DNA from: a virus
Length of the DNA stretch: 36,931 bases
Virus record (IMG/VR): IMGVR_UViG_3300031578_009193
Location: 1 to 36,931 of that record
Strand: one strand, 5' to 3'
Shown: in pieces, positions 8,101-35,285 of the stretch
Numbering within the stretch: position 1 is the first letter of the stretch
Layout: the number at the start of each line of letters is the position of its first letter
The notes under the pieces: generated by a model
Databases searched by the model: none
What the model was told of the DNA's origin: nothing
What the model saw: the letters and a program-made list of their open reading frames with translations, nothing else
Made by a program: the position numbers and the translations under genes

Positions 8101-9564
8101 CATGCTGTACATCGCGTGGTGTGTCGGGATCCGATACTTGACGTCTTCCTTGTTCATGGAGCGGATGCGCCCGCCTTCGAGGACGTCGCGTTTTCCGTGT
8201 TTCGAAGCGCCCGGGAATGCGATGGAGGCTTCGGCTGCTTCCGCTATAGGAACGTACTCGATGTGCTTTCCCCGCTGAAGCGGCGTGAAGATGTTCCCCT
8301 CACTGTCGGTGGCGGTGAAGAGAGAGGTGCGCACGTCGATGCCGGCGCGGTGAGACTCCGGCGTGCGCACCGGATCGATGATCGCAGCGTGAGTAGGGTG
8401 CAGGCGCCGTGCCTCGTCGGGCACCGCGCGATCGCTGGCAATGCCACCCTCGCCCATAGACGTGACGCGGACGGCAGAGTCGATGATTTCCACCGGGTTG
8501 ATCTGTGCCGGGTTCCCCGAGAGTGCCGACGTAGAAAGGAAGCGTCGGATGCCGCGGGAAAACGGAGAGGTGCCCAGGGCGCGCTGGATGTCCGGAGTCG
8601 CACCGTAATCGAGGCGACTGAGTGCCTTGCGCTGCAAGTCGCGTGCGTCGAGCTGAATACGCTCCTTGATGAAGTCGTCCGGGCCGAGCAGCTTCTTGAA
8701 CGCCAGGTTGTCGCGCTCGTCGAAGTCTTCGCCAGAGTTGTAAGCCTGGAGCAGCCGCCCCGAGGCTTCGAGAATGGCGTCCGGCGTCACACGGTCGAAA
8801 GACGTCCCGAGCGTTTTCTTCGTGGTGTCGGGGTCGAGCTTCGCACGGTCGTGCGCCTTGCGCACCGCCTCGACGGTGTCCTCTCCGGCGCGCCGCTGCC
8901 CTGGGTGCACCGTCTTTTCGTAGAGCTTTTTGAAGTAGGCGTCCTGCTTCTCACCGAAGGCGGCCTTGTTTTCCCGAACGAGCTGGGGGTTCCACTTCCT
9001 GGCGATCTGGCTGTCGGAGAGGCCCATCTTCCGAAGCACCGGGTAGAGGGGAATCTTGGAAGCGCCGAACTCCATGTTGAACTGGCCCTTGACCGGGTCC
9101 ATGCTCACACGGAAACTCGGTCCGCCGTGGGTGTTGAACTGCGCCTCGAGTTCTTCGTTGCGCTTCTTCCTTGAGTAGACTCCCGGCTTCATTCGCAGCT
9201 GGTTGCTCACCGAGTAGCGGTTCCCGCGGATCACGAAGTTGTCGTGTGCGGTCAGGTGTGGGAGCTGCATCAGCGTGAAGTCGCGTTTCTCTTGCACGAC
9301 CTTCCCGCTCTGGTTGTCGATGAGCTTTACGGTCCCGCGAACGGGCTCAGCCAGAGAGCGCGCACCGAGGATCGCTTTCTTGTAGTCGTCGGGTCCGTAC
9401 TCGGCCGGCTTCACGTTCACGTTCGAGACGGCAACGGTGTAGCGCCGTCCGACAAACGGGAAAACGTCTTTGATTCCCTGCACAGCCTTGTCCCGAATGC
9501 GCTCGCGGCGCACGTCGGCCGAGGTAAATACAGGTCGGAGATCGCTTGGAGTCTTTGCCGCCAT
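5134..9564 (-). CDS. RNA polymerase beta / beta' N-terminal fusion
   Basis: A 1476-aa single chain joining the beta subunit to the first part of beta'. Beta landmarks in order: FVIRGNRYSVSNQLRMKPGV, the LLGPDD-x-IKERI stretch, LSGNPAQINPVEIIDSAVR (fork/rifampicin region), HPTHAAIIDPVRTPE, GMNSNDAVVVSE, KIGDKLAGRYGNKGV and GRMEFNALVAHDA. Beta' then begins with GGFFDPALTGG and VPVVPPVYRPIVPG, passes KRRQDVSGRGTIAPD and LFVNRAPSLYRYN, and carries the metal-binding loop QAGDFDGDAV (canonical NADFDGDQ). It stops soon after, at EEPT, so the rest of beta' must come from the gene at 1-742. The ATG at 9564 has no Shine-Dalgarno; TATACT lies 6 nt before it, so the mRNA may be leaderless. A TTG at 9582 is an alternative start. 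Giant phages such as phiKZ also split their RNAP subunits, but beta fused to half of beta' is unusual. Confidence 0.95.
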   Translation of the reverse strand: MAAKTPSDLRPVFTSADVRRERIRDKAVQGIKDVFPFVGRRYTVAVSNVNVKPAEYGPDDYKKAILGARSLAEPVRGTVKLIDNQSGKVVQEKRDFTLMQLPHLTAHDNFVIRGNRYSVSNQLRMKPGVYSRKKRNEELEAQFNTHGGPSFRVSMDPVKGQFNMEFGASKIPLYPVLRKMGLSDSQIARKWNPQLVRENKAAFGEKQDAYFKKLYEKTVHPGQRRAGEDTVEAVRKAHDRAKLDPDTTKKTLGTSFDRVTPDAILEASGRLLQAYNSGEDFDERDNLAFKKLLGPDDFIKERIQLDARDLQRKALSRLDYGATPDIQRALGTSPFSRGIRRFLSTSALSGNPAQINPVEIIDSAVRVTSMGEGGIASDRAVPDEARRLHPTHAAIIDPVRTPESHRAGIDVRTSLFTATDSEGNIFTPLQRGKHIEYVPIAEAAEASIAFPGASKHGKRDVLEGGRIRSMNKEDVKYRIPTHHAMYSMSTNLIPFLDSIDGNRATMGSKMMTQALPLKGGEAPMIQVSSYRPGRSMEEEVGAMVVPTAPVSGTVMSIRDGYVHIKPDTPTKTGAPPTKVPYFTDFPLASKTYLNDTLTVSRGQKVKAGQPLAESHYAKDGQLSMGRNLRVAYTSMRGMNSNDAVVVSENAANKLTSLHMYQEGTEVDSESLVNSKIHANYYGNKYAPDLYNKLGDDGVVKPGMRVNPGDLLIASVQKSKLTPEARMLGKLHKKLVKPYRDTGVTWEHDTPGVVTDVVRAGNKIRMTVKTEEPLKIGDKLAGRYGNKGVVSAIIPDDQMLQDENGNPIDMAVSPTSVVTRINPAQVLETALARVAEKTGKRIIIENFADRDNVAYVKAELKKHGLKDTETITDPQTGKKISGVLVGPQFTQKLMKTTATNFSARGVDDYDVNQQPSAGGPKGAKGIGRMEFNALVAHDARNVVQETAALRSQRNDAWWRAHQLGLPTPALRTPFAYDKFGAMLAGAGIKMDKRGNHVQVGPLTDKDVEAVTSGAIKRPLFVKAKDLTPEQGGFFDPALTGGNNGTKWSHVELSEPMVNPIFERPVRTFLGMKQKELEEVIQAEGGAGVQKRLSKIDLDQRETETLAKLKKLKADKRNNAVKELKYIRALKENGMRPEDAYVVSKVPVVPPVYRPIVPGTGGNLQISDPNYLLRDTMIANDLVRKTKGLPPDMQRDARKHLYESMGALYGVSEPTSPQLQGRNVQGYIARISGAGRSPKSGFFHGKLLKRRQDVSGRGTIAPDATLAMDEVGLPEDAGWSMYAPFVMKDLVRRGFRATEAKTMIEDRHPTARASLVRETGERPLFVNRAPSLYRYNMLAAYPKLVPGKTIRVHESLAPIQAGDFDGDAVSLTVPVTAQAVEEAKRLTLPNMLLSDQRKFTLTKAAPQQEAVMGVYQATSASPTGQARVFNNQADAMTAYHRGEITLGTPVSFKGAAKSRKTRQATLWNPAAHTIEEPT

Positions 9565-9570
9565 GCCGAA

Positions 9571-9584
9571 AGTATAGGACAAAA
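9571..9584 (-). promoter_or_regulatory. Candidate -10 element for the RNA polymerase block (leaderless start)
   Basis: On the minus strand TCCTATACTTTCGGC runs straight into the ATG at 9564, placing TATACT exactly 6 nt before the start codon. Transcription would then begin at or next to the A of ATG. The same layout occurs before the terminase gene. No good -35 hexamer is visible at 16-18 bp. The core TTTGT-N3-ATACT-TTCGG recurs before the gene at 33702 as TTTGT-N3-ATACT-ATTCGG. Confidence 0.45.
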
Positions 9585-9690
9585 ATGGTATAAGTACTAG
9601 AATGATAATGCTTTAGGGATTTTCTTTCTTCGCCCGTTGCGCTCGCTGTCCGGCGAGCGCTTTCCAAACCCCATGCCGACCGGAGGAACG

Positions 9691-10416
9691 ATGTCGGAAC
9701 CCGGAGGAGTGCCACACAATATTGTACTTAGGGATCCCGCGACGGAGCCGTTGGTAACGGTTCCGGACACGCTTGAAGCCGCCTTGGCGCGCACGCTGCG
9801 AGAGCAGCTCGTGGCGATGGAACGCCGCGACGCGCAAGTCATGGTGGCCAAGTTGGCGGGGTCCCCCTTTGCTGAGGGACTGGGGCCGGAGGAGATCCTC
9901 CGGCGCGCTGACCTGGAACGCTGGTATGCTGGACGGCGTATCTGGTTTCGATTCCGAAACTCTGGACAGAAGCGCTGGATGCGGGGAACCTGCGTCGACT
10001 TCCGCGGCGCGCCGGGCATGCGGTTGCGTGTGATTCCGGACGGGCGGGATCAGCGGCTTCGGGCGCTCGAGCTGGAGGAGCTCGAGGTAGAGAACCGCCC
10101 GGAGCGCACACAACGCAGGGCCCGGGAAGACCTGACCAGTGTGCAGCGGGATCTGGCGGCGCTCTGGCGTCAGATCAAGGACATGAAGAAGCGCGAAACG
10201 CGACGCCGTTCTACGGCGGCGCCAGCGCCTATGACCCTGTCTCTGTCCGCTCTGGCTAACAAAGCCGAGAAGCTCGACGAACGTCTCCGGCAGTGCTGGG
10301 ATCTGTGCATCCAGGCCGGGAAAGAACTCGAGCACGAGCGCAGCCGCAGCGAGCGGCTCTTCCGAAAACGAGAACGAGAGGAGAAAAGGAATGGTGCATG
10401 TGAGACGAGTCCGTAA
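9691..10416 (+). CDS. Coiled-coil protein with small beta-barrel-like segment, unknown function
   Basis: A 241-aa protein. The start at 9691 has GGAGG 5 nt upstream; two upstream in-frame Met codons lack such a site. Residues 30-60 are helical and charged (LARTLREQLVAMERRDAQVM). Residues about 75-135 (RRIWFRFRNSGQKRWMRGTC, then a run of beta-like residues to LEELEVENRP) look like an SH3- or Tudor-type barrel. Residues 140-240 are a long charged coiled coil ending in an Arg/Lys/Glu-rich tail. I do not recognise the family. A long minus-strand frame across the same bases (9613-10434) looks like a shadow, since it has no ribosome site and low-complexity content. The gene is divergent from the RNA polymerase block. 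Confidence 0.7.
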   Translation: MSEPGGVPHNIVLRDPATEPLVTVPDTLEAALARTLREQLVAMERRDAQVMVAKLAGSPFAEGLGPEEILRRADLERWYAGRRIWFRFRNSGQKRWMRGTCVDFRGAPGMRLRVIPDGRDQRLRALELEELEVENRPERTQRRAREDLTSVQRDLAALWRQIKDMKKRETRRRSTAAPAPMTLSLSALANKAEKLDERLRQCWDLCIQAGKELEHERSRSERLFRKREREEKRNGACETSP

Positions 10417-10462
10417 CGAAGGCGTGTGGATCAAGGAGATGCCTCGGCCGAAGCCGAAGTAG
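10391..10462 (+). CDS. Possible 23-aa basic micropeptide
   Basis: A short frame, MVHVRRVRNEGVWIKEMPRP and then KPK, overlaps the end of the previous gene in another frame. A strong Shine-Dalgarno (GAGGAGAAAAGG) precedes its ATG, which is the main reason to list it. The product is basic and proline-tipped, with no known relative. It could equally be a chance frame behind a purine-rich gene end. Confidence 0.35.
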   Translation: MVHVRRVRNEGVWIKEMPRPKPK

Positions 10463-10542
10463 CCCCACCACCACCACCACGCCGTCGTTCCGCTCGCTCA
10501 CATATTATCTTGTCTCTTGCGGGATTGGAACGTAGGACGGGG

Positions 10543-10584
10543 GAGGGGACAGGGTCAGCCTTTGCGGGCCGACCCTGTCCCCTC
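10543..10584. terminator. Long perfect inverted repeat at a convergent gene junction
   Basis: A 14-bp perfect stem, GAGGGGACAGGGTC (10543-10556) with GACCCTGTCCCCTC (10571-10584), encloses a 14-nt loop. It lies where the plus-strand block (ending 10462) meets the minus-strand gene ending at 10555, and its left arm overlaps that gene's stop codon. A T-containing run (CCTCCTCTTT) follows on the plus strand; none follows on the minus strand. A terminator for plus-strand transcripts is the simplest reading. Confidence 0.55.
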
Positions 10585-11025
10585 TGCCTCCTCTTTAGCT
10601 TCCGGCGTCTTTCGGGTCGGGAAGAACTCGAGGTACTTGACGACCACGTAGACGTCGCCGTCCTTCGTGTTGTACCACTCCTCGCGAGCGAGGATCCAGT
10701 TCTTACCCGGCGTCAGGCAGTTGTTCTGGATCTTCTCGAGCTCGGCGCAGTCGGAGGCTTCACCGAGGTTGAAGCGACCGAAGCGCGCCTTGAACTTGCC
10801 CTTCGGCTGTGTGAAGAGCTGCGACGTTTGGTCGTTGCCCGTCGCGGCACCGGGCATGTCAGCGCCCATCTCCTTTGCGATGTCGCGCCACTGTCCGTCC
10901 TGGAAACCGCCCTTCGCGCCTGGATGCAGCGGCGGCATCTCACGCACGTTTTCCGGGTTGTTGGCCTCCCCGATGGCGTCCATGAAGTCGTTGGAAAAGT
11001 TGTCCGCACCGCCCTGTCCACCCAT
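10555..11025 (-). CDS. Unknown protein coupled to portal
   Basis: A 156-aa protein whose ATG shares its A with the portal stop codon (TAATG), so it is translated with the portal protein. The N-terminus is Gly/Asn/Asp-rich (MGGQGGADNFSNDFMDAIGE), the middle is hydrophilic, and residues 80-140 look like a compact alpha/beta domain (KARFGRFNLGEASDCAEL, later DGDVYVVVKYLEFFP). The tail is charged. No family recognised. From position it may be a head-assembly or portal-associated protein. Confidence 0.75.
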   Translation of the reverse strand: MGGQGGADNFSNDFMDAIGEANNPENVREMPPLHPGAKGGFQDGQWRDIAKEMGADMPGAATGNDQTSQLFTQPKGKFKARFGRFNLGEASDCAELEKIQNNCLTPGKNWILAREEWYNTKDGDVYVVVKYLEFFPTRKTPEAKEEAEGTGSARKG

Positions 11026-12758
11026 TACATCGGCCCTCCACCAGCACCACCGGCAGCCGCCTTGGCCTCGGCTGACGCAGACTGGTTCATCTGCTTCATC
11101 ACGAACGACACCAGCGAGAACATCACGATGTCCTCGGTCTGGAGCTGGTGCAGTTGACTCTGCTTGAGTTCGGGCGGCCCCTGCAAGAGCTGCATCGCGA
11201 GCTCCTGCGCCTGGACGAGCATTTGCTGCGGGTCATACTGCGGCGCGGGAGGCTGGTTGGCCTGTGCGCGTGCCGTCTCGGCCAGGTTGCTCTGGAGCTC
11301 CTTCATTTTACGATCGAGGTCTATCTGGAAGCGCTGCTCATCGAGCGTCTCCTGCATCCGCTGGTCCCGCTCGTTCTCCAGGTTACGCCCGAAGAGCTGC
11401 GCCATGGACGTGTTCGAGAAGAGTTGGCCGCCTGTCTGCTGGTTTGCCTGGAGCAGCATCATCTTCTGCTGCACGTCGTCGACGAGCTTGAAGGGCTCCA
11501 GGTCGAGCTTGATGCGCGACCAGCCCATGAATGAGCCGCACTTGTCGGAAATCCACTGGGCTTGCTCAACCTGCTCGTTGGTATAGTTGAGCAGTTGGTT
11601 TTCCAGCATCCGCAGCGTGACGCCAGAGCCGGTCGCCGAGAGGCCGCCGTAGAGGAACTCACGCGGAATGCCCATGGCGGCGATGATGTTGTTCTCGGCT
11701 TCGGTGATCTCCCCCGTCACCATCAGCGCGCGGCCCTGTCCGCCAACTTGCGTGACTCCGACCGGGATGGGCGCGAACATCATGTGCAGAGGGTCTCTAC
11801 GCCACGCCTTGAGGTTCAGCTTCATCTCGTTGGTCCAGTTGGACAGCGAGATGGACACCGTCGGGTCGGCCTGGGCCGTGGACTGGGCCGGGTGGAGTAC
11901 TCGGAAGGGAACGATGTGTTCCAGGGAGATGGCCTCGTTGGCCTTCTTCAGCACAGCACAATGGAAGAACTGCTTGAGCGTCGAGGCGAGCGCCGGGAAA
12001 CCCCAGCGGTTATCAATTCCTGCCGGCGCGTCGGCCTTCATGTGGTAGATCTTGCCCGGTCCGAACTTGAACAGCTTCTTCTGCGCGACGGCTTCGAGGA
12101 AGGCCAGCGGCATCGTGGCCAGCAGATGCTTGTCGGCGCTGCGAACGCGGGACTGAATGTCCGAGGGCATCTGGTAGTAGTACACCGACTCATCGGTAAT
12201 GGGGTTCGTTTCGATCTCGATCTGCTTGGGATCCCAACGGATGATGCGGATGCCCTTGGCGAGCCGCAGCTTCTCATCGTGGACTTCGGCGCGGGTGGGG
12301 CCGCACTTATCGCAGGTCATCGTGAAGCGCAGCTTCTTGTTGCGGATACGGAAGTTGTAGCGAGCGTGCTTGATGTTTACCATCGATCCACACTTCGTGC
12401 ACTTCAGGAAGCGTCGGAACGGAAAGTAAATCGAGGTGAACGAGTTGCCGTACACGTGACGGTCGATGCCGGTCCGGACCAGGATGCCCTTGAGTTTCAG
12501 TGTTTCATCGAAGAGTCGGCGGTACTTCGCCTTCAGCGTTGGGTTGTCCGTCTCGTAGATGAGGTCCGTAATCGGGTAGACTGCGAACTTGTTGAGGGCA
12601 GCGAAGATCTGCGGCGAGTTGTAGTACAGGTACTCGCAGTAGACGAAGAGGGTTTTGAGCTTTCGTGGGACAAAGGTCGTGAGATAGTCGAACAACGGGT
12701 TCGGATGCGTGATGCTCCGGCCGATGTGCTCTGTCCCGTAGTCATCGAGGTAGGGCAT
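11025..12758 (-). CDS. Portal protein with zinc-ribbon insert
   Basis: A 577-aa phage portal protein, the dodecameric ring through which DNA enters and leaves the capsid. Family-typical features are the opening with LFDYLTTFVPRKLKTLFVYC, and the C-terminal region EITEAENNIIAAMGIPREFL and YGGLSATGSGVTLRMLENQL, which matches the portal GIP-x-xF-G and helical stem/wing segment. The C-terminus is a Gln-rich coiled coil with a Gly/Ala tail. Residues about 118-155 hold two CxxC pairs (CTKCGS and CDKCGP), a zinc-ribbon insert not usual in portals. The ATG has GAGGAG 5 nt upstream, and a good sigma-70-like promoter lies 32-60 bp before it. The adjacent replication gene is divergent. Confidence 0.88.
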   Translation of the reverse strand: MPYLDDYGTEHIGRSITHPNPLFDYLTTFVPRKLKTLFVYCEYLYYNSPQIFAALNKFAVYPITDLIYETDNPTLKAKYRRLFDETLKLKGILVRTGIDRHVYGNSFTSIYFPFRRFLKCTKCGSMVNIKHARYNFRIRNKKLRFTMTCDKCGPTRAEVHDEKLRLAKGIRIIRWDPKQIEIETNPITDESVYYYQMPSDIQSRVRSADKHLLATMPLAFLEAVAQKKLFKFGPGKIYHMKADAPAGIDNRWGFPALASTLKQFFHCAVLKKANEAISLEHIVPFRVLHPAQSTAQADPTVSISLSNWTNEMKLNLKAWRRDPLHMMFAPIPVGVTQVGGQGRALMVTGEITEAENNIIAAMGIPREFLYGGLSATGSGVTLRMLENQLLNYTNEQVEQAQWISDKCGSFMGWSRIKLDLEPFKLVDDVQQKMMLLQANQQTGGQLFSNTSMAQLFGRNLENERDQRMQETLDEQRFQIDLDRKMKELQSNLAETARAQANQPPAPQYDPQQMLVQAQELAMQLLQGPPELKQSQLHQLQTEDIVMFSLVSFVMKQMNQSASAEAKAAAGGAGGGPM

Positions 12759-24400: not shown

Positions 24401-24766
24401 GAGCGGAAATGGCTCGTGGTTTTCTGGCCGCGGGCGCTCTCTACCTTGTTGACACGGTCGCCGAAGTTCCGGAACTACACGGGACGACACGGGCGCATCA
24501 AGATGATCGCCGACAATGACCCCCGGGTGGTGCCGCAAAGCACGCTGAAGCGGGAGGGTTTTATCAGGAACTTCGTTCGTCCGCGCATCGGTGCGCGGAT
24601 TGCGCTCAGCAACATTAGCGTCATCGACCTGACCGACACCGTTGACTTTACCCAGAAGAACGATGAACCGGCACACGTGAATGCTGAGCGTCAGGAGTCT
24701 GTTGTGCAAGACTTGGCTACCGAGGTCGGCGCTGGCAAGCCGGACTCCGGGAACTTTGACGTATGA
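21404..24766 (+). CDS. DnaG-type primase fused to a P-loop helicase
   Basis: A 1120-aa bifunctional replication protein starting at GTG. Residues about 45-80 are a CHC2-type zinc finger (GCCIYHQEDSPSFYV and AHCFGGSC), which reads the template for primer synthesis. Residues about 283-340 are a TOPRIM domain: VVEGEFDALAII with the catalytic Glu, and LLPDNDSGG with the acidic pair. A linker of about 350 residues follows. Residues about 705-720 hold a Walker A (LNGETQSGKTTLFQIYGG), with VMMDEFEEND as Walker B (about 765) and an RNRP-like CPVTIGG segment, so the C-terminal half is a superfamily 3/AAA-type or primase-associated helicase. Its stop overlaps the polymerase ATG by 4 bp. A TTTAC-N3-GTAAA palindrome lies within it at 23211-23223. 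Confidence 0.9.
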   Translation: MAKKTQAKNVSPQQLSEIWNKISPADWLALLEEHKPGHQWTLRGDSIVGCCIYHQEDSPSFYVNPKRGNAHCFGGSCPKKNVWNPVAFVADVMGISYVQALRTLKNRFGIALPAAYAQNAQQIEDNDKLKRLIAVVMNREFREAVENPDDPNYSYIEESGLIDWFRKRKFPEDVLHRLPIGVMPTYPRLSERLKEIKGGVESRDAAHTYLQEYFAPPGSPPKSEGALVFFYYTSPTTIGRFRIRQPGTSTQYAVDDPYSEDVGYFGLNLYPEHMGDLDNYPLHVVEGEFDALAIIAHQLSGGFNDVCIVATGGSMEANLDVLGGFGFTKMRLLPDNDSGGVGWAKNLMTENELVSSVFSWTDEERGHVKDVDEAVRAYGFEPFYDRVQNKKSYVHNHTWAITQTAQAFETIDEGDVDARNAVVVEFGSALKKDAERDAFLKHVCDEYSISREWVLQGIVPFDTPEGFTQRLHRLLEETYQFLHNATTQQGVRMIKAWSKKRKIVVSFPMDSVTKIHAQLAGDLGDLEQYVAQNLGMPDFLRLRDGPRGRMVARSLSDTLRQLDVHFQKALERAGKIIAEVGNLDEIGQGVHFIRDPEDGTATVYVVNGRTNFFKGTLTDDTITYERLECPVDGEHMFRATDKPWSVNLNSLEDIAESEQHDPKDAYHMVRGIIDRGWKFMHHDLETTFIAADILYTPVSLVFETTVVTDLNGETQSGKTTLFQIYGGDRYPGYRLCEAVTAIQDDYTKAAILFKNAGNSLRVMMDEFEENDMGASRPTKRGNAVRDIRELIRGLAMGKVESIRGTAGGQHISRTLRCPVTIGGIYTMDEPRDLNRYVHIRTKFIRGFPHPIFSIQQRYTVEDMRKLRRAITLCWLGRIPQLRTKFEETRQTFAGGANLPSGMYTRLLDNLLPAATILNFIGEDYIKFVQEFSILKMQEMADQGATVQESEEIWEEVLHTGIPLAHHSRDAEGVSSVSYLLSHGTAHILSQTDLGVYYVPERKWLVVFWPRALSTLLTRSPKFRNYTGRHGRIKMIADNDPRVVPQSTLKREGFIRNFVRPRIGARIALSNISVIDLTDTVDFTQKNDEPAHVNAERQESVVQDLATEVGAGKPDSGNFDV

Positions 24767-27666
24767 GAAAAGGTTCTGAATGCAAAGCGTGCCCGGCGCA
24801 GTATGACCCCTGCCTCTGGCGGGGCCACGGAGACCAACCGGCGCACATCATCGTTGTGGGGCCGTCCCCTTCCGGGTTTTCAATCGGAAAAGGGATGCCG
24901 TTCTTCGGACGGTACGGGCGACTGTTCAAGCAGCTGTTGAACATCGTCCGCGCCCACGACGGTGGCCGATATGTTGAGACCAAGGTGTTCTACACCTACG
25001 CCGCGCGCGTCGGAGCGTACAAGCCGAAGAAAGGCCACATCGAGAGTTGTAACCCGGTACTCATGCGGGAGCTTGATGGGATCGACGGTGTCAACGGTGT
25101 GCCGCCGGTCATTGTTCCGTTGGGTCCGGTAGCCGCAAAAGCCGTGGGGCTCAAGTTTCGCAAGATCGGCAATGTCGTAGGCCGTGAGTTCACACTGCCA
25201 TTCCCTTCGTCTCGGCCAGAGAATATGGATGGGCGCGTGCGGCGCCTGTCCGTGATTCCTCTGCTGTCGATGCAGCACCTTTCAGCGAAGCCCGGCACTT
25301 CCAACGTGGTGGTGTCGGCGCTGCACAAAGCTGTTGGCATTGCACACGGGAACCGACCGAGTGCGATCGACCTCGATGAAGTGACGAAAGACTACGAGTA
25401 TCCCAAGACGCTGGAAGAGGTCGATGACCTGGTCACGCGGATTGTCAACTACTACGACCCGGCGCGCGGACAGGGTTCGCAGGACTGGGCTATCTCTCTT
25501 GACACCGAGACCAATACGCTGAAGCCCTACTCCCATCCGGACCCAAAAATTCTGATGATCTCTGTGGGCTGGGATACTGGGAAAGCGGCGACCATCCTGC
25601 TCGACCATCCGGAGGTTCCGTACGATCCGAAGGAAGCCTGGAAGATCGTCGAGCGCCTTCTCACCTGTCAGAAACCGAAGATCTTCCACAACTGGAAGTT
25701 CGATATGAAGTTCCTCGAGAACGTGTACGGGTACCGGGTAAACCGCGTGGCCTGGGATACGATGCTCGGAGAGCACTACATCGACGAAGACAAGAAGGGC
25801 TTCTACAGCTTGAAGCAGCTGACCCCGCTGTACGCGTCGTCCTATGAAGGCTACGACGATGACCTCCAGGACCTCTTGCGCGGCGAGGAAGACCAGGACG
25901 TCGACGAAGACGAGGACGGGGACGCCGCGGCTACCGTCGCTGATCTTCACCTGAAGAACGACGAAATCCTGGACCGAGAACTCGTGCTGGGATGCCCACC
26001 TGATAGAGACGAATCTCAGTGGCAGACTCTCGTGACTGCCGTCAAGAAGTACGAGGAGATCAAGGAGACGCCGGCCAAGAAGCGGTCGACGTACGAGCAG
26101 GACCAGTTCAAGGAAAAGAAGAAAGAGATCTCTGCGCTTCGCAAGGAGCTGGCGGTCAAAGTGCCGCGCAAGCCGAAGAAGGACGCCGAAGCCAAGAAAG
26201 ACGGTGACGGCGGGTTTGAGAAGATCCCACTGGAGACGATACTGGTCTACGCCGCCGTCGACGCCGACGTGACGCGCATCATCCTTCGTGCGCAGACGAA
26301 CCGCTTGCACCGAACCGACTCCTGGAGCGACGCCCGCGACGTCATGCGGTATCTCTACGTGCCAGGCAGCTACACACTGTCGAACATGGAGTACCGCGGC
26401 TTCACGATGAACATGGAGTATCTCGAAGAGCTCTACACGGATCTCACGGAGCAGATGAACACAGCGAAGGAGGAGATCGCTTCTCGCTTCGACCCGACGC
26501 TCAACCTGAATGCCCCGCAGCAGATCGCGTCCTACATGTCTCGGTTGCAGTTCGACGCCATCCCCGGAGAGGACACGGCGAGTACCAACAAGGATCTGCT
26601 CTCACAGTACGAGGGCATGTACGAGGCGGACGACCCACGCCGCATCTTCGTGACGCAGCTGCTGGCCTACCGAGAAGCGCACAAGGCGCTGAGCACTTAC
26701 ATCAAGCCGTACCGCCGCATGACCAAGGCAGACGGGAAAATCCACTGCCGCTTTCACCTCAACGGAACAGCGACGGGACGACTCTCCAGCGCAGACCCCA
26801 ACCTCCAGAACGTTCCGCTCATCGTGTGCCGGAAGGAGGTCGGCGACGAAGTGCTGCACCCGGGTTTCAATGTGAAGCGTCTGTTCGTGCCGAGCCGTCC
26901 TGACTACATCATCGTTGACTGCGACATCAAGGGCGCTGAGCTCCGCGTGTACACGGCCTATTCGAGAGACGCGGCCATGATCGCAGCGCTCAACAAGGGG
27001 ATGGACGTTCACTCGTTGGTGACATCGAAAGCCTACAAGATGCCCTACGAGGAGGTGCAGGCTCGGAAGGAAGAGCCCGAGATCAAGAAGAAGAGGACCA
27101 ACTGCAAGCGGACGGTGTTCGGTACTTTCTACGGTGCCGGCCCCTACAAGATCATGCAGCAGATTGACAGCACCAAGGAGTACGCCGAGTGGCTCCAGAA
27201 CTTCCTCTTCACGGAGTTCCCCGAGCTGCGGGCCTACGTCAGTGAAGTCGAGCATGAGGTCCGCACCAACCGCGAGGTCAAGACGTTCTTCGGACGGCGC
27301 CGTCGTTTCCAGCTGGCTCACGTCAGCTCGAAGCTGATGAACGACGCCCTCCGTGAAGCTGTGAACTTCAAGATTCAGAGCACCAGCTCCGACCTCGTCG
27401 TCTCCCAGCTGTGTGAGATGGATGAACACTTCGCAGATCTGGAAGCTCGGATGCTCATCACTGTGCACGACAGCATGGTGTTCGAGATGCCCGAGCGAAA
27501 CTTGCACAAGCTGAAGCCGTTCCTCGATCACTGGATCGTTGACCGCGTGAAGGAAAAGTTCGCGTGGCTGCCGGTTCCCTTCCTGTACGATGTGGAAGTC
27601 GGACCGACCTACGGCGACGTCACGAAGCTGGAGAAGTACAATGGCACAGCGCAAAAAGCAGGCTGA
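24763..27666 (+). CDS. DNA polymerase I family enzyme with N-terminal UDG-like domain and 3'-5' exonuclease
   Basis: A 967-aa replicative polymerase. Residues 1-190 resemble the family 4 uracil-DNA glycosylase superfamily: CKACPAQYDPC, VVGPSPSGFSIGKGMPFFG, C96 and VIVPLGPVAAKAVGL. The cysteines may bind Fe-S, but the usual catalytic loop (GEAPG-type) is altered, so activity is uncertain. The proofreading exonuclease has SLDTETNTL (Exo I, about 245), HNWKFDMKFL (Exo II) and YAAVDADVT (Exo III), with a long acidic/Lys-rich insert between II and III. The polymerase has TATGRLSSADPNLQNVP (about 670), motif A VDCDIKGAELRV (about 717), motif B KRTVFGTFYG (about 782) and motif C ITVHDSMVFEMP (about 900). 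It is coupled to the primase gene by ATGA. A T7/SPO1-like replication role fits. Confidence 0.94.
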   Translation: MRKGSECKACPAQYDPCLWRGHGDQPAHIIVVGPSPSGFSIGKGMPFFGRYGRLFKQLLNIVRAHDGGRYVETKVFYTYAARVGAYKPKKGHIESCNPVLMRELDGIDGVNGVPPVIVPLGPVAAKAVGLKFRKIGNVVGREFTLPFPSSRPENMDGRVRRLSVIPLLSMQHLSAKPGTSNVVVSALHKAVGIAHGNRPSAIDLDEVTKDYEYPKTLEEVDDLVTRIVNYYDPARGQGSQDWAISLDTETNTLKPYSHPDPKILMISVGWDTGKAATILLDHPEVPYDPKEAWKIVERLLTCQKPKIFHNWKFDMKFLENVYGYRVNRVAWDTMLGEHYIDEDKKGFYSLKQLTPLYASSYEGYDDDLQDLLRGEEDQDVDEDEDGDAAATVADLHLKNDEILDRELVLGCPPDRDESQWQTLVTAVKKYEEIKETPAKKRSTYEQDQFKEKKKEISALRKELAVKVPRKPKKDAEAKKDGDGGFEKIPLETILVYAAVDADVTRIILRAQTNRLHRTDSWSDARDVMRYLYVPGSYTLSNMEYRGFTMNMEYLEELYTDLTEQMNTAKEEIASRFDPTLNLNAPQQIASYMSRLQFDAIPGEDTASTNKDLLSQYEGMYEADDPRRIFVTQLLAYREAHKALSTYIKPYRRMTKADGKIHCRFHLNGTATGRLSSADPNLQNVPLIVCRKEVGDEVLHPGFNVKRLFVPSRPDYIIVDCDIKGAELRVYTAYSRDAAMIAALNKGMDVHSLVTSKAYKMPYEEVQARKEEPEIKKKRTNCKRTVFGTFYGAGPYKIMQQIDSTKEYAEWLQNFLFTEFPELRAYVSEVEHEVRTNREVKTFFGRRRRFQLAHVSSKLMNDALREAVNFKIQSTSSDLVVSQLCEMDEHFADLEARMLITVHDSMVFEMPERNLHKLKPFLDHWIVDRVKEKFAWLPVPFLYDVEVGPTYGDVTKLEKYNGTAQKAG

Positions 27667-27955
27667 TCCTCTCTTCCGGATGTACCTGCCGGCCACTGGT
27701 GGCATGGCGTTGGGCGGTCAGGAAACGGAACGGAAAGATGGTATAATAATAGTGAGGGACCCTGTTTTCATTTCGTCTCGCGAAGACGGGGTCGGATACA
27801 CCTTCACTCCCGTTCAGTTCGTGACGTCTGGAGAGCCCTTTCGGCTCTACGCATCCGGTCTCCTGGCTGACTTCATGATGCCCGCGGCTATCGTCCCCTG
27901 GTTTCAGAAGTACCAGGAGAATCGGAGGAAGAGAGCAGAAGACGACCCCACCTGA
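27641..27955 (+). CDS. Small protein at the end of the replication operon
   Basis: A 104-aa protein whose ATG lies inside the last codons of the polymerase gene (GGAG about 8 nt upstream). It is basic at the start (MAQRKKQADPLFRMYLP), with a beta-rich middle (KDGIIIVRDPVFISSREDGV) and a basic/acidic tail. No family is recognised. A TATAATAATAG stretch within it (about 27740) looks like a -10 box but has no -35. Its TGA is followed within one base by a TTTAC-N3-GTAAA palindrome. Confidence 0.65.
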   Translation: MAQRKKQADPLFRMYLPATGGMALGGQETERKDGIIIVRDPVFISSREDGVGYTFTPVQFVTSGEPFRLYASGLLADFMMPAAIVPWFQKYQENRRKRAEDDPT

Positions 27956-27968
27956 TTTACTGCGTAAA
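27956..27968. promoter_or_regulatory. TTTAC-N3-GTAAA perfect palindrome after the replication operon
   Basis: TTTACTGCGTAAA, a perfect 5-3-5 dyad beginning immediately after the TGA stop of the last replication gene. It marks the border to the long gene-poor region. Position and sequence match the copies at 14755 and 18512. Confidence 0.6.
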
Positions 27969-28190
27969 CACTTGCCTAGTAGGCTTTCATCAGGCCGGAG
28001 CGACGCAACGTCGTTCACCATGTCCTACAGCTTCGACTTCGTCTCGCTCGTACTGCTCGGCGATTCCCCTCGAGGCCAAGGAGACGATCGCAGACGCCTT
28101 GAAGACATCCCCGCAGTATAAATACGTAGGCAAGTTTCCGTTTGGCAAAGCGGGTCTGACCGCATGGGCGCGCAACGCGCTCCGTTCCTG

Positions 28191-28680
28191 GCGGTCTAAG
28201 TCCAAGGCTCTCTTTCCTCTATCGGTCGTCAATTTTCGCTACGTCTGACGGCTTCGTCATACTCCGCGAAAATTGCCGCCCGATCTGCGCGTTCGCCTTG
28301 GACTTAGATCGCGCCGATTCAAATACGCAAACGGAAGGGTTCCGCTACGAGAGGGGCGCGTATGCCCCACCTAGAGGCGTGTTGACCAACAACACTATGC
28401 CGTGTAACACGGCAGCACAGGTCGGATAGTGACAAACGCTCTACCTCGCTAACCTCCGCGCCTGCGGACCACGGCGGGTCGTCGAGACACAGCTTCGCAA
28501 CGCCTCCCGCACTCCCGCGTTGGGCGCTCCGTCACGCTCGGCCGCGCACGCGCAAACACGTGGGCCATCACATGTTTGCATTACGCACGCTAGTCGCCTG
28601 AGTCTACCAGAACCTGGATAAATCTTTGCTCACGCGTTTAAGTCACCTGAGCCGTCGGACTTCCTCAGCTGACTTAAACT
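28191..28680. ncRNA. Probable large structured RNA (nested and serial hairpins), strand undetermined
   Basis: The 756 bp between 27956 and 28711 hold no convincing gene but many perfect inverted repeats. A long nested hairpin spans 28191-28312: outer arm TCTAAGTCCAAGGC (28195-28208) with GCCTTGGACTTAGA (28295-28308), extendable to 18 pairs with one G-T; then ATCGG/CCGAT; then CAATTTTCGC (28230-28239) with GCGAAAATTG (28266-28275); and an apical TGACG-gctt-CGTCA. Four short hairpins follow in series: CGGAA-ggg-TTCCG (28332-28344), GGGGC/GCCCC (28353-28368), GTGTTG-accaa-CAACAC (28379-28395) and GCCGTG-taa-CACGGC (28399-28413). Further on are GCAAACA/TGTTTGC (28552-28579) and GTTTAAGTCA/TGACTTAAAC with an inner CTGAG/CTCAG (28636-28679). 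This density is far above chance and fits a large phage non-coding RNA of the GOLLD/ROOL kind, though I cannot match a known consensus. A replication origin or packaging site is the alternative. Confidence 0.6.
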
Positions 28681-28691
28681 CGCTCTCAAAG

Positions 28692-28708
28692 ACCTATCCC
28701 CGGTAGGT
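28692..28708 (-). terminator. Weak hairpin after the terminase gene
   Basis: On the minus strand, 3 nt after the terminase stop, ACCTA-ccgggga-TAGGT is followed by CTTTG. The stem is only 5 bp and the T-run short, so this is at best a weak intrinsic terminator. The stronger GTTTAAGTCA hairpin lies 13 bp further on. Confidence 0.3.
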
Positions 28709-28711
28709 GGG

Positions 28712-30307
28712 CTACGCGTCCCTCTCGTAGAATTCTATGTCACCCTGGACAACCTTCATCGCCAGCCAGCAGAAGACCTGGGCTTGGAGACAGTCGTCGG
28801 GTGCCGTCGGTGCGTGCTTCCACAACGTGCGCACCGCACCGCCCTGTCCGGAGTGCCCGCTCTCCTGATACTCGTTGAGGATGTCCTGGATGGGCGTGGC
28901 CATCTGTCGCGCCGTGGGGAAGATGACCCCGGACTTCTTCAACTGAAGCATATACGAATCGATCGCAGCATTGCGGTTGACGAGGTATCGTGTGCCCTGC
29001 TTGTTCCAGCGAATGAGGCTGGCGAAGCCGGCGCCGCCGCCGTACTGAGCCTGCCCGACACGGTGAGCGCCAAGGCGGTCACGCAACGCGGAGTTGGCCA
29101 CGGCCCCCTCGCCGGCGTCGCCCATGACGTAGCGGCAGTCACACTGTTCGAAGATTTTCGCAACTTCCTCGACGTCCTCAATCTGGTTGGCGTTGGCGAA
29201 GATCTGGTAGTAGAGCGTCTTCAACTTGTAGTCTTCGGTCAGACCGAAGACCCACGCCACGGTGCGGGACTTGAATCCCTCTCCGTTGCCGGCCCAGTCT
29301 ACTCCGCCTACGACAGTTCGGATGCCGCGGAGAATTGACGGGGCGACCGGCAGCCCAATGAAGTAGTCTTCGCATAATGCCATCAGCTCGGCTTGCGAGA
29401 TGAACCGGCTGCCGATGTCTGATGAAACTCCCATCACCTCGTTCATGAACTGGGACTCTCCGTAGTCCTCCATCTTCTGAACGATGCGTTCCCATCGACG
29501 GGGCTGCTCGACGTTACGGGGAAGGATCGGCTGCGGTACATGGAACCCCTTCATCTTTGCGTTGGGGTTGAAGTCGTACCACTGCCCGATCCGCGGGTTG
29601 AGATACTTTCCGCACTTCCTACAAATGATACCACTCTTGCCGATGGACTTGACGCTGTCCACGTAGTTCCAGCTGTCACAGCCCTCGCACTGCATGATCC
29701 ACTCGGACTGCGAGCTGCGCTGCCAGAGGAACTCGATGGTGTTTTCCATCGACTTGGGAGTCCCCGCGTAGGTCGTGAACGCGAAGTCGGAGTTGCCCAT
29801 GCACTCCTTGATCACGGGGATGATGTCGTAAACAATGTCCTGAATTTCGTCGAGGAACTCCCAGTCAGCGGTGATACCGCGAATACGGTCCGGGTCGTCC
29901 CAGGCGTAGGAGAGTGCGATCTCCGAGCCGTTCTTCAACAGCTGGAGCAATACATTGTTGGGCAACGATGGGTCGACGTAGTTAGCGCGGACGTGCGGAG
30001 AGTAGTGGATGATCTTTGAGAGCCGAGTATTACTGAACCGGCTCGTCTGTTCTCTGGTCGGAGAAACGTAGAGGGTCTTGAAGTGGTCAATCGCTACGCT
30101 GTTGGCGATGATGAGCGCCGCACAGGTAACGGACTTTGATATCTGTCGTCCGGTCTTCAGGAGAACATCTGCGGCGCCACAGTTGAAAACTGCCGGCGCG
30201 AATGGGTAGTCGTACAAGGAATACTGTCGTCCGTCCAAACGCAAAAGTCTCTGCGCGACGTGGGATCGCGTGAGGGCGTGCGAAAGGAGCGGCGGCGCAC
30301 TGTTCAT
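28712..30307 (-). CDS. Terminase large subunit with zinc-ribbon insert
   Basis: A 531-aa DNA-packaging motor. The ATG at 30307 is preferred: a longer GTG start at 30352 would run into the divergent AAA gene and has no ribosome site. The ATPase has a deviant Walker A (LLKTGRQISKSVTCA, about 45-60), Walker B EFLDEIQDI and the coupling motif TTYAGTP. The nuclease domain shows GGVDWAGNGEGFKSRTV (first Asp), YVMGDAGEG (second) and a C-terminal APDDCLQA acidic site. Between the two domains is a zinc ribbon, CEGCDSWNY and CRKCGKY, a feature also seen in some GpA-type terminases. TATGAT lies exactly 6 nt before the ATG, so the mRNA may be leaderless. The small subunit is not identified. Confidence 0.92.
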   Translation of the reverse strand: MNSAPPLLSHALTRSHVAQRLLRLDGRQYSLYDYPFAPAVFNCGAADVLLKTGRQISKSVTCAALIIANSVAIDHFKTLYVSPTREQTSRFSNTRLSKIIHYSPHVRANYVDPSLPNNVLLQLLKNGSEIALSYAWDDPDRIRGITADWEFLDEIQDIVYDIIPVIKECMGNSDFAFTTYAGTPKSMENTIEFLWQRSSQSEWIMQCEGCDSWNYVDSVKSIGKSGIICRKCGKYLNPRIGQWYDFNPNAKMKGFHVPQPILPRNVEQPRRWERIVQKMEDYGESQFMNEVMGVSSDIGSRFISQAELMALCEDYFIGLPVAPSILRGIRTVVGGVDWAGNGEGFKSRTVAWVFGLTEDYKLKTLYYQIFANANQIEDVEEVAKIFEQCDCRYVMGDAGEGAVANSALRDRLGAHRVGQAQYGGGAGFASLIRWNKQGTRYLVNRNAAIDSYMLQLKKSGVIFPTARQMATPIQDILNEYQESGHSGQGGAVRTLWKHAPTAPDDCLQAQVFCWLAMKVVQGDIEFYERDA

Positions 30308-30313
30308 GATTCT

Positions 30314-30319
30314 ATCATA
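30314..30319 (-). promoter_or_regulatory. Candidate -10 element for the terminase gene (leaderless start)
   Basis: TATGAT on the minus strand, then AGAATC, then ATG: the same -10, 6-nt gap, start-codon geometry as at the RNA polymerase gene. No ribosome site is present for this ATG. A -35 match at the normal spacing is poor. Confidence 0.4.
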
Positions 30320-30330
30320 CGGAGGAGATT

Positions 30331-31557
30331 GTGGCGGATCAAGAGGCAGCACAGGACCAGAACAAGTTTTGGGAACGACTGGGAATTCTGACGGCGCCGC
30401 TCAACAAGGTACGCAAGATGATCGAGATGACCTTCCGAAGTCATCAGGTCGCGTGCCTGGTGGGCGTCGCTGGCATCGGGAAGACGCAGATCTTCAGCCA
30501 GATCGCAGAGGACAATGACTGGGACGTTGTCTTCATGTACCTCGCCCACCGCGAGCCCGAGGACATCGCTGGAATCCCGGTCCCGAACAAGGACGGGAAC
30601 AGCTACCGCTTCCTCACCGAGGAGTCTGTCTTCGACATCATCAACTCGAAGCGCCCCACCATCCTCGTCTTCGATGAGTGGAACAGGGGTGAAAAGCCGG
30701 TGATGAACGCGGCTTTCACCGTCATGGAGGCGCGGCGCTTCGGCAGTTACACACTGCCGGACCATGTCTACGTTGCTGCGGCGATGAACCCGTCCGAAGA
30801 CAACTACGTGGTCAACGAGGCCGAGAAGGATCCCGCGTTCCGCCGGCGCCTCTGCTTCGTGGGCGTGCGTCCGGACGCCAACGTCTGGCTCGAGTGGGCC
30901 CGCGGTCGTGGGAACATCCACTCGATCGTGGTGGGATATGTTGATATCCAGCGCGACGCCCTGATCGACACCAACAGCCGCGACGCCGGAAAGATCTACG
31001 CGAACCCGGCTTCGTGGGAGAAGGTCAGCAATGCCCTGAAGGCGTGCGAGCAGATGGCCGCCGAGCAGGGCGTCTCGGTCGAGGACATGCTCCCCATCCT
31101 GCGCATTCAGCTGGCTGGGCTCGTCGGTGCTGGAACTGCTGAGGCGTTCATCGGCTACTACAAGGACCACGCTACGGCCATCAGCCCGGCCGAGGTTCTC
31201 GGAAGCTACTCGAAAACCGCGCAGCAGAAGGTCCTGTCGCTCGTCAAGAGCCACAAGCACCGGGAGCTGACAGACGTTTGCGAGTCCGTGGCGTCGGCGC
31301 TGTCGTCGGGGAACTTCGAGGTCGAAGACGTTGTTGGGAACGTGTCGATCTTCTCGAAGGACTTGCCTCACGACATGGCCAACGCGTTCTTCGTCAAGAT
31401 CACGAAGCACCTCAACGAGACTTCCGATACGGATCTGAAGTCCAAGCTGTCGCGGGCGCTCTCGAACGAGCCGGCGTTCCGCGAGGTGTACATGCGCATT
31501 CTCAACGCGCACGAGAACGTCGAGGAGGAGATCCACAGCGACGAGAAAGCCGGCTAA
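30331..31557 (+). CDS. MoxR-like AAA+ ATPase
   Basis: A 408-aa AAA+ protein, GTG start with GGAGGA upstream. Walker A GVAGIGKTQIFSQIAE is at about residue 45, PEDIAGIPVP follows as in MoxR proteins, Walker B ILVFDEWNRGEKPVM at about 110, sensor 1 AAMNPSEDNYVV at about 150 and the arginine-finger region DPAFRRRLCFV at about 168. The C-terminal 200 residues are helical, with a lid and an unassigned domain. MoxR ATPases act as chaperones that remodel or mature partner complexes, usually with a VWA-domain protein. That partner is encoded at 33786-35285, separated here by three minus-strand genes. The stop codon overlaps the convergent gene's stop by 3 bp. Confidence 0.88.
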   Translation: MADQEAAQDQNKFWERLGILTAPLNKVRKMIEMTFRSHQVACLVGVAGIGKTQIFSQIAEDNDWDVVFMYLAHREPEDIAGIPVPNKDGNSYRFLTEESVFDIINSKRPTILVFDEWNRGEKPVMNAAFTVMEARRFGSYTLPDHVYVAAAMNPSEDNYVVNEAEKDPAFRRRLCFVGVRPDANVWLEWARGRGNIHSIVVGYVDIQRDALIDTNSRDAGKIYANPASWEKVSNALKACEQMAAEQGVSVEDMLPILRIQLAGLVGAGTAEAFIGYYKDHATAISPAEVLGSYSKTAQQKVLSLVKSHKHRELTDVCESVASALSSGNFEVEDVVGNVSIFSKDLPHDMANAFFVKITKHLNETSDTDLKSKLSRALSNEPAFREVYMRILNAHENVEEEIHSDEKAG

Positions 31558-33785: not shown

Positions 33786-35285
33786 GTGGATGCGAGTCTG
33801 AACGACTTCTTTTGCTACATGGTTTCGGGGCGTGGGAACAATTTCTACGCCCGCATTCTGGCCGCGCTGGAGACCCACGAGACCACCCGCTACCCGGCGA
33901 TGGCGGTCACCGTGCGCGACCGACACTTCGTGCTCCTCTACAACAAGGCATGGGTAGCCAAGGCCACCTTTGATGAGGTCGTGGCTGTCACGGAGCACGA
34001 GTGCCTGCACCTGGTGCTCGAGCATCTGGCTCGCCACCTGGAGCTTGAGGCTCGGTACGCGGGAGACAAGGAGGCGCTGGCCAAGATCCGGATCGTGGCC
34101 CCGTTCGCCGCGGACATGGCCGTCAACACCCTCCTGGTCTCGTCGTCACCCTACGTCAAGGAGCACGCCAGCGAGTGGGTGGTTCCGGGCTACGGTCAAT
34201 TCGACAAGATCCCGAAGGATAAGTCCTACGAGTGGTACGTTGCTCGGCTGATGCGCGACATCAACGTCAAGAAGATCTCGATGAAAGCGCTCATGTCTCT
34301 CCTCGACAAGGCGGGTTTCAACGGTCCGCGTGGAGACCAGGGTTCCATGTTCGGAGAGGGGCCGCGCGACAAGCCGAAGGAGGGCGAAGAGAAGAAGGGC
34401 GGCGCTGGCGGTGAGGGCGAGGAGGAGAAGGAGGGCGAAGAGAAGAAGGGCGGCGCTGGCGGTGAGGGCGAGGAGGAGAAGGACGGCGGTGGTGCCGGCG
34501 CCGGCGGTGAGGGCGAGGAGGAAGAGGAGCTCGGCCTTGGAGAGAAGCTCCTGGCCAACCACGCTGACTGGGACAACGCCGATAACAAGGATGCCGCCGC
34601 TGACGACAAGACGTCGCTGGCTGACGAGCTCGGCTACCAGGTTCGCAACGTCTTGCAGAAGGCGGTCGACGACCACAAGAAGAGCCGCGGCACTATTCCT
34701 AGAAACGTTGCCGAGGTCATCGAGAAGCTCCTCAAGAAGCCGCAGATCCCGTGGACGCAGCTTCTTCGTGACTGGGTGGTGAGCACAAGGCGCTACCGCT
34801 GGCGGCGCAGTTGCGCACGGATGCGTCGTCGCTACATTGGAATGCCAAAGCTGATGCCGTTTCCGGGGAAGAAGAAGGACCGGAAGTTCACCGTTGCATT
34901 CATGGAAGACACCTCCGGATCGATGGGTGCCCGTGAACTGGAGATGGCGCACAACGAGCTACTCGGCCTCCAGAAAGCCGACAAGGAAATCAAGATCCAC
35001 GTGATCCACTGCGACGCGGCCGTGGAGTACGAGTACATCCTGGGAACCAACGACAAGATCGAGCACAAGGCGCACGGCCGAGGAGGGACGTCGTTCGACC
35101 CGGCTCTTCGTCGTGCGCAGGAAATCGATCCTGACGTTGCATTCTACTTCACCGATGGATACGCGCCCGCGCCACACAAGGAGAGCCGGCTCAAGTGCCC
35201 GTTTGCCTGGATCATTACTCCCGGCGGAACGAGGCCTGATGAGAACTACGGTCGCGTAATCTATACACGTCCGTACGAAAAGTAG
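33786..35285 (+). CDS. DUF2201-type metallopeptidase/VWA-like protein, partner of the MoxR ATPase
   Basis: A 499-aa protein, GTG start. Residues about 1-130 contain TEHECLHLVLEHLARH, an HExxH-x4-H zinc-peptidase signature as in the putative metallopeptidase domain of the DUF2201 family. Residues about 185-260 are a Glu/Gly/Lys low-complexity linker built on a 17-residue tandem repeat. Residues about 365-495 are a VWA-like domain: FMEDTSGSMGARELEMAHNE (D-x-S-x-S MIDAS), RGGTSFDPALRRAQEI and FYFTDGYAP. MoxR plus DUF2201-type pairs are common in bacteria, where they are thought to remodel or activate partners; being phage-borne is unusual. The AAA gene lies 2.2 kb upstream on the same strand. 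Confidence 0.87.
   Translation: MDASLNDFFCYMVSGRGNNFYARILAALETHETTRYPAMAVTVRDRHFVLLYNKAWVAKATFDEVVAVTEHECLHLVLEHLARHLELEARYAGDKEALAKIRIVAPFAADMAVNTLLVSSSPYVKEHASEWVVPGYGQFDKIPKDKSYEWYVARLMRDINVKKISMKALMSLLDKAGFNGPRGDQGSMFGEGPRDKPKEGEEKKGGAGGEGEEEKEGEEKKGGAGGEGEEEKDGGGAGAGGEGEEEEELGLGEKLLANHADWDNADNKDAAADDKTSLADELGYQVRNVLQKAVDDHKKSRGTIPRNVAEVIEKLLKKPQIPWTQLLRDWVVSTRRYRWRRSCARMRRRYIGMPKLMPFPGKKKDRKFTVAFMEDTSGSMGARELEMAHNELLGLQKADKEIKIHVIHCDAAVEYEYILGTNDKIEHKAHGRGGTSFDPALRRAQEIDPDVAFYFTDGYAPAPHKESRLKCPFAWIITPGGTRPDENYGRVIYTRPYEK
34380..34481 (+). repeat. 51-bp tandem repeat, two copies plus a degenerate third
   Basis: In-frame direct repeat encoding EGEEKKGGAGGEGEEEK twice, followed by a partial DGGGAGAGGEGEEEE. 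It forms the flexible acidic linker between the peptidase-like and VWA-like domains and could vary in copy number by slippage. Confidence 0.8.

Follow-up and report, generated by a model that had tools for sequence, protein, structure and literature searches.

The window analyzed here, the whole 36,931-nt stretch of a 36.9-kb virus record (IMG/VR IMGVR_UViG_3300031578_009193), is probably a genome fragment, in which the upstream phage genes run rightward and the gene for the terminase large subunit (terL) runs leftward. The rightward genes include those for an exonuclease, a primase-like protein and a family-A DNA polymerase (polA), the latter carrying a uracil-DNA-glycosylase (UDG)-superfamily domain fused at its N-terminus. 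Between polA and a small gene on the left and terL on the right lies a gap (27956–28711) with no database-supported gene, the 756 nt of which correspond exactly to the gene-free region described in the initial annotation of this DNA. A tRNA search of the window returned none. At 33786–35285 (plus strand) the window encodes a protein with a putative metallopeptidase domain and a VWA-like domain (DUF2201), labeled HNH endonuclease in PHROGs and conserved near terL in relatives.

As listed in Table 1, three tandem domains (C, B and A) span 27970–28730 on the plus strand, starting 14 nt after the small gene's stop codon. The plus-strand order within a domain is the P1 5' arm, which ends in a purine, a G, a short hairpin (P4), a 7-bp hairpin with an NNA loop closed by G-C (P3), a long and variable P2, a junction and the 3' arm (P1'), with the junction taking forms such as AAATACG, AAATTCG, AACGAAG or AACGTAG across arrays. 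Domains C and B carry this plan strictly, and domain A has P1, P4 and P3, its P2 position being occupied by several hairpins. The long-range stem of domain A (28345–28362/28713–28730) is 94% complementary and extends inward to about 28373/28703.

Table 1. Features of the locus in the window, and further arrays in genomes of relatives.
Feature	Position	Strand	Description
Family-A DNA polymerase	24763..27666	+	3'-5' exonuclease and N-terminal UDG domain
Small gene, no assigned function	27590..27955	+	likely start 27640; homologues in several relatives
Domain C	27970..28135	+	strict descriptor match
Domain C P1	27970-27978 (ACTTGCCTA) / 28127-28135 (TAGGCAAGT)	+	9-bp closing stem
Domain C P4	about 27982-27996	+	
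Domain C P3	27999-28015	+	AGCGACG-CAA-CGTCGTT, one G.U
Domain C junction AAATACG	28120-28126	+	
Domain B (middle)	28136..28336	+	strict descriptor match
Domain B P1	28136-28144 (TTCCGTTTG) / 28328-28336 (CAAACGGAA)	+	9-bp closing stem
Domain B P4	about 28150-28163	+	
Domain B P3	28166-28182	+	GGGCGCG-CAA-CGCGCTC, one G.U
Domain B P2	28191..28312	+	arms 28191-28208/28295-28312, inner hairpin 28221-28284
Domain B junction AAATACG	28321-28327	+	
Domain A	28345..28730	+	looser fit; missed by strict descriptor owing to divergent junction
Domain A P1	28345-28373/28703-28730	+	overlaps terL stop codon at 28712-28714
Domain A P4	28379-28395	+	
Domain A P3	28398-28414	+	TGCCGTG-TAA-CACGGCA
Long hairpin inside domain A	28616..28699	+	arms 28616-28651/28664-28699, 78% complementary
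Terminase large subunit (terL)	28712..30352	-	convergent with the array
Further array, G001	near 104 kb		strict descriptor
Further array, G010	near 101 kb		strict descriptor
Further array, G016	near 3 kb		strict descriptor
Further array, G010	near 83.5 kb		looser criteria
Further array, G016	near 98 kb		looser criteria

The inverted repeats named in the initial annotation are all present, the long arms being 94% (the 18-nt P2 arms of domain B), 80% (28221–28250/28255–28284, with a perfect 10-bp core at 28230–28239/28266–28275 as read from the sequence) and 78% complementary. Its RNA reading was largely right, with the unit, extent and strand now corrected: there is indeed structure within 28191–28680 but the true element is larger, and the 18-pair stem exists but forms the P2 inside the middle domain and not an outer closure. 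Instead of a single large RNA closed by 28191/28312, the element is a tandem series whose unit is the repeated domain; the long-range stem of domain A and the two 9-bp closing stems had not been noted. The view that these hairpins belong to a structured phage RNA and are not terminators agrees with the letters themselves, in which P1, P2 and P3 of the window have no T run directly 3' on the plus strand. The 785-nt region folds at −326 kcal/mol (z −7.3) on the plus strand and −365.7 (z −11.8) on the minus strand, with no shuffle equaling the native energy on either strand; with 40 shuffles, z was −8.8 (plus) and −9.8 (minus).

Relatives were collected through TerL and polymerase alignments as viral contigs with the same synteny, that is, terL facing polA. 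By blastn and nhmmer the gap has no nucleotide similarity to phage records or to the relatives' gaps, many of which fold strongly despite this. What first drew attention to the repeated plan was the motif CG[T/A]ATTT, read on the terL strand, immediately within a perfectly paired closing stem. Python descriptors took the place of a covariance model, for which P2 varies too much; the strict one specifies a P1 with R|G..G|Y and a P3 of 7 bp with G-NNA-C. Searching 93 related post-terL intervals with it yielded 41 domains, all of them on the RNA strand and none on the terL strand, located in 24 intervals (24 contigs), the window included through domains B and C, while 20 shuffled sets yielded 0 domains. 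Given that the remaining 69 intervals are without a strict domain and that the close relatives L007 and L081 are without an array, the array is either dispensable or often missed.

Keeping in mind that the rows of our alignment A4 (trimmed domains with P2 removed) were chosen by descriptor, we regard its double changes in 7/7 P1 and 6/7 P3 pairs, and the disappearance of pairing on sliding, as illustrative; the actual tests are the counts of flanks, P3 presence, G.U pairs and shuffles. Among unconstrained perfect arms of at least 9 bp, C..C inner flanks occurred in 34 of 68 cases vs. 16 of 167 in shuffles, with no enrichment of the mirror-image G..G flanks. When domains were chosen on P1 and the motif only, so that P3 was not a selection criterion, 27 of 32 contained a perfectly paired hairpin, in most cases exactly 7 bp long, around a loop of 3 nt; this count includes a few other P2 hairpins and overlapping, non-independent domains of L165, L159 and L013/L230. 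For the arrays of L168 and L170, which can be aligned (78% identical), the consensus fold reached −232 vs. −161 (sd 7.9) for column shuffles, although double changes alone were only modestly above the null. The structure is kept between phages with TerL as little as 41% identical. P1 and P3 covary across relatives, covariation being the check put forward in the initial annotation, and the outcomes it had set against an RNA, a lack of covariation or coding constraint, did not refute it.

The strand was assigned from the mismatches. Because an A.C mismatch reads as G.U on the complementary strand, and because single-mismatch hairpins of the P3 type have 34 G.U on the plus (RNA) strand vs. 6 on the terL strand, against a whole-phage background of 27:25 for the same comparison, the functional strand is opposite terL, i.e. 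the plus strand of the window. The call rests mainly on P3 because the long stems have no such G.U bias, and the GNRA tetraloops (5 on the RNA strand, 0 mirrored) help weakly; the lower energy of the minus-strand fold counts against it. That lower energy had led to a first reading of the RNA on the terL strand, which was dropped after the bias in P3 was seen. A symmetric comparison of G.U with A.C on whole stems was uninformative, rRNA controls being likewise unbiased. The array strand agrees with that of an upstream gene in every locus examined, and GC skew has no clear link to it. Moreover, the first P1 arm lies 14–25 nt past a co-directional ORF stop in 12 of the 21 intervals having such an ORF, the window among them, and in 12 of 24 no more than 8 nt separate the end of the last arm from the terL stop. 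This placement suggests that the array is transcribed together with the upstream gene; here it would probably be borne in the 3' UTR of the polA-operon transcript.

The genome pieces of relatives (1.84 Mb, both strands counted) were scanned with the strict descriptor, and nearly all matches fell in known arrays or in additional arrays of the same genomes, some of which sit between co-directional genes. A search of all viral contigs with the sequence of a P3 hairpin matched 29 contigs, with a full domain at the hairpin in only two, both from this phage group; a stray descriptor match in L295, away from the hairpin, was taken as chance. At L251:2560-3480 a single 5' arm faces four identical 3' arms (CAGACGAG), and downstream of terL in L165 a single 5' arm faces three (TGAACTGC), the junction motif preceding each copy in both cases; such motif-plus-arm copies would fit alternative or intermolecular pairing. 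The same L251 (part of the 198-kb phage contig G010) carries, at 5634–12224 (about 104–111 kb of the contig), a 6.6-kb cluster of a tmRNA gene and 38 tRNA genes, which lies about 2 kb downstream of the array and shares its strand. As to hosts, three contigs with related TerL come from Archaeoglobales, Cloacimonadota and Burkholderiales MAG bins, which contradict one another, and host assignment from bins was abandoned; L282 (QMZE01000001.1), a contig of this phage group in an Archaeoglobales bin, is probably a misbinned virus. The TerL matches of G011 and G014 each contain one in-frame stop (TAG and TGA, respectively), reflecting a broken gene, an intron, an error or recoding.

Rfam 15 covariance models gave no match at gathering score on either strand of the window; for 27500–29200, up to E 10, there were chance matches to microRNAs and lncRNAs only, far below gathering score, and the relatives' arrays had no match, the only tRNA and tmRNA matches lying elsewhere in L251. 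Searches of the open-access literature brought up work on GOLLD, ROOL and OLE and general RNA surveys, with nothing on this array. The earlier suggestion of GOLLD or ROOL membership therefore finds no support on either strand or in relatives, whereas the accompanying one, of a possible new class without a known consensus, accords with these results. The tandem plan, the P1 and P3 pairing kept amid sequence change, the strand, the recurrence at further loci of some relatives and the absence from Rfam were all observed computationally, and we conclude that the array, which is very probably an RNA, represents a new class of modular, structured RNAs in large uncultured phages.

With the P3 hairpin and the junction constant and repeated, and P1 and P2 free to vary in sequence, presentation of a repeated binding site is the simplest reading. 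Each module would close as one domain (P1, P4, P3, P2), three in tandem here, and would expose P3 and the junction beside P1 as constant surfaces forming a putative binding site. Like CsrB-type RNAs, to which it is unrelated, the array may then serve a single protein or ribonucleoprotein as a multivalent platform, either sponge or scaffold. The partner and this role we infer, and a plus-strand modular RNA at the 3' end of the polA-operon transcript acting in this way is a reading that we favor only tentatively.

Two proposals are close rivals of the sponge or scaffold. Tandem blocks in 3' UTRs are known from flaviviral xrRNA arrays and bacterial REP elements, and the domains might similarly guard the 3' end behind the upstream stop codon by blocking 3'-5' exonucleases, or might stop the polymerase before it makes RNA antisense to terL. 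Their very stable folds, their start 14–25 nt past the stop (12/21 intervals) and their end no farther than 8 nt from that of terL (12/24) all speak for such a guard, but a plain block needs neither a 7-bp hairpin of fixed loop type nor a conserved junction, and some further arrays lie between co-directional genes, with no antisense to stop there; we deem this possible, if somewhat unlikely. We are more doubtful that modules of different molecules associate into a large RNA-only particle like GOLLD and ROOL, the spare 3' arms of some arrays serving intermolecular pairing. The RNA is large, ornate and phage-borne, L165 and L251 hold three and four motif-plus-arm copies pairable with one 5' arm, and a tmRNA/tRNA island follows one array at a distance of about 2 kb, a setting reported for GOLLD and ROOL (PMC12286853); against this, there is no sequence or covariance-model match to either, and the varying domain number and hypervariable P2 fit a fixed particle poorly. 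The same repeats of motif plus arm in L251 and L165 are the reason for a further idea, which we likewise hold to be unlikely, of a new kind of modular RNA machine in which one head (5' arm, P4, P3) would pair with any of several interchangeable tails, each a hairpin with an AACGNAG-like motif and a 3' arm. If true, it would mean a switchable or polymerizing RNA at several genomic loci in a whole group of large uncultured phages.

A role in DNA, with the hairpins formed in single-stranded or supercoiled molecules for replication, packaging or recombination, seems quite improbable. The stems are mostly Watson-Crick and fold well on both strands, the array sits between replication and packaging genes, and the further arrays found are all on one genome strand; however, the P3 mismatches are strongly skewed to G.U on one strand, that strand matches an upstream gene at all loci examined, and GC skew shows no clear link. 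Least credible of all, to the point of being nearly negligible, is a degenerate or hidden protein gene at 27871–28248 (+): although this frame is open for 125 codons, is partly protein-like and overlaps domains C and B, it has no PHROG match, tblastn of its last 77 residues against 50,697 phage records was likewise empty, and relatives preserve the RNA plan, not the sequence, so that a coding frame is unsupported.

With the array, the few large ornate RNAs known from phages are joined by a class of tandem, modular design. The complete invisibility of this array to searches by sequence similarity suggests that further RNAs of this kind lie between the genes of uncultured phages, and the constant P3 hairpin offers a concrete bait for partner identification.

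Among known systems, flaviviral xrRNAs resemble the array in their tandem multi-helix elements and in its putative 3'-UTR place, but fold and helix order differ, and exonuclease resistance would be an analogy only. Sponge RNAs of the CsrB/RsmZ type carry repeated copies of one small hairpin motif, much as the array repeats P3 in one RNA; its unit, however, is a closed multi-helix domain, and the GGA-loop motif is not its constant element. The pRNA of phi29, a helical-junction RNA that binds the prohead and the packaging ATPase and forms a ring via loop-loop contacts, conserves its fold while its sequence drifts. The array does the same and adjoins a terminase gene, but it is tandem, lies on the strand opposite terL, occurs also far from terL and matches no Rfam family. 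Nearest in kind are GOLLD and ROOL, which form homo-oligomeric RNA particles. The array differs from them in having no Rfam match, in consisting of independently closed tandem domains of varying number and in occupying several loci per genome in some relatives; like them, it is several hundred nt long, elaborate, phage-borne and intergenic. GOLLD and ROOL are often found near tRNA islands (PMC12286853), and the proximity of one relative's array to a tmRNA and 38 tRNAs, which follow it at about 2 kb, is a parallel to that setting, not a sign of membership.
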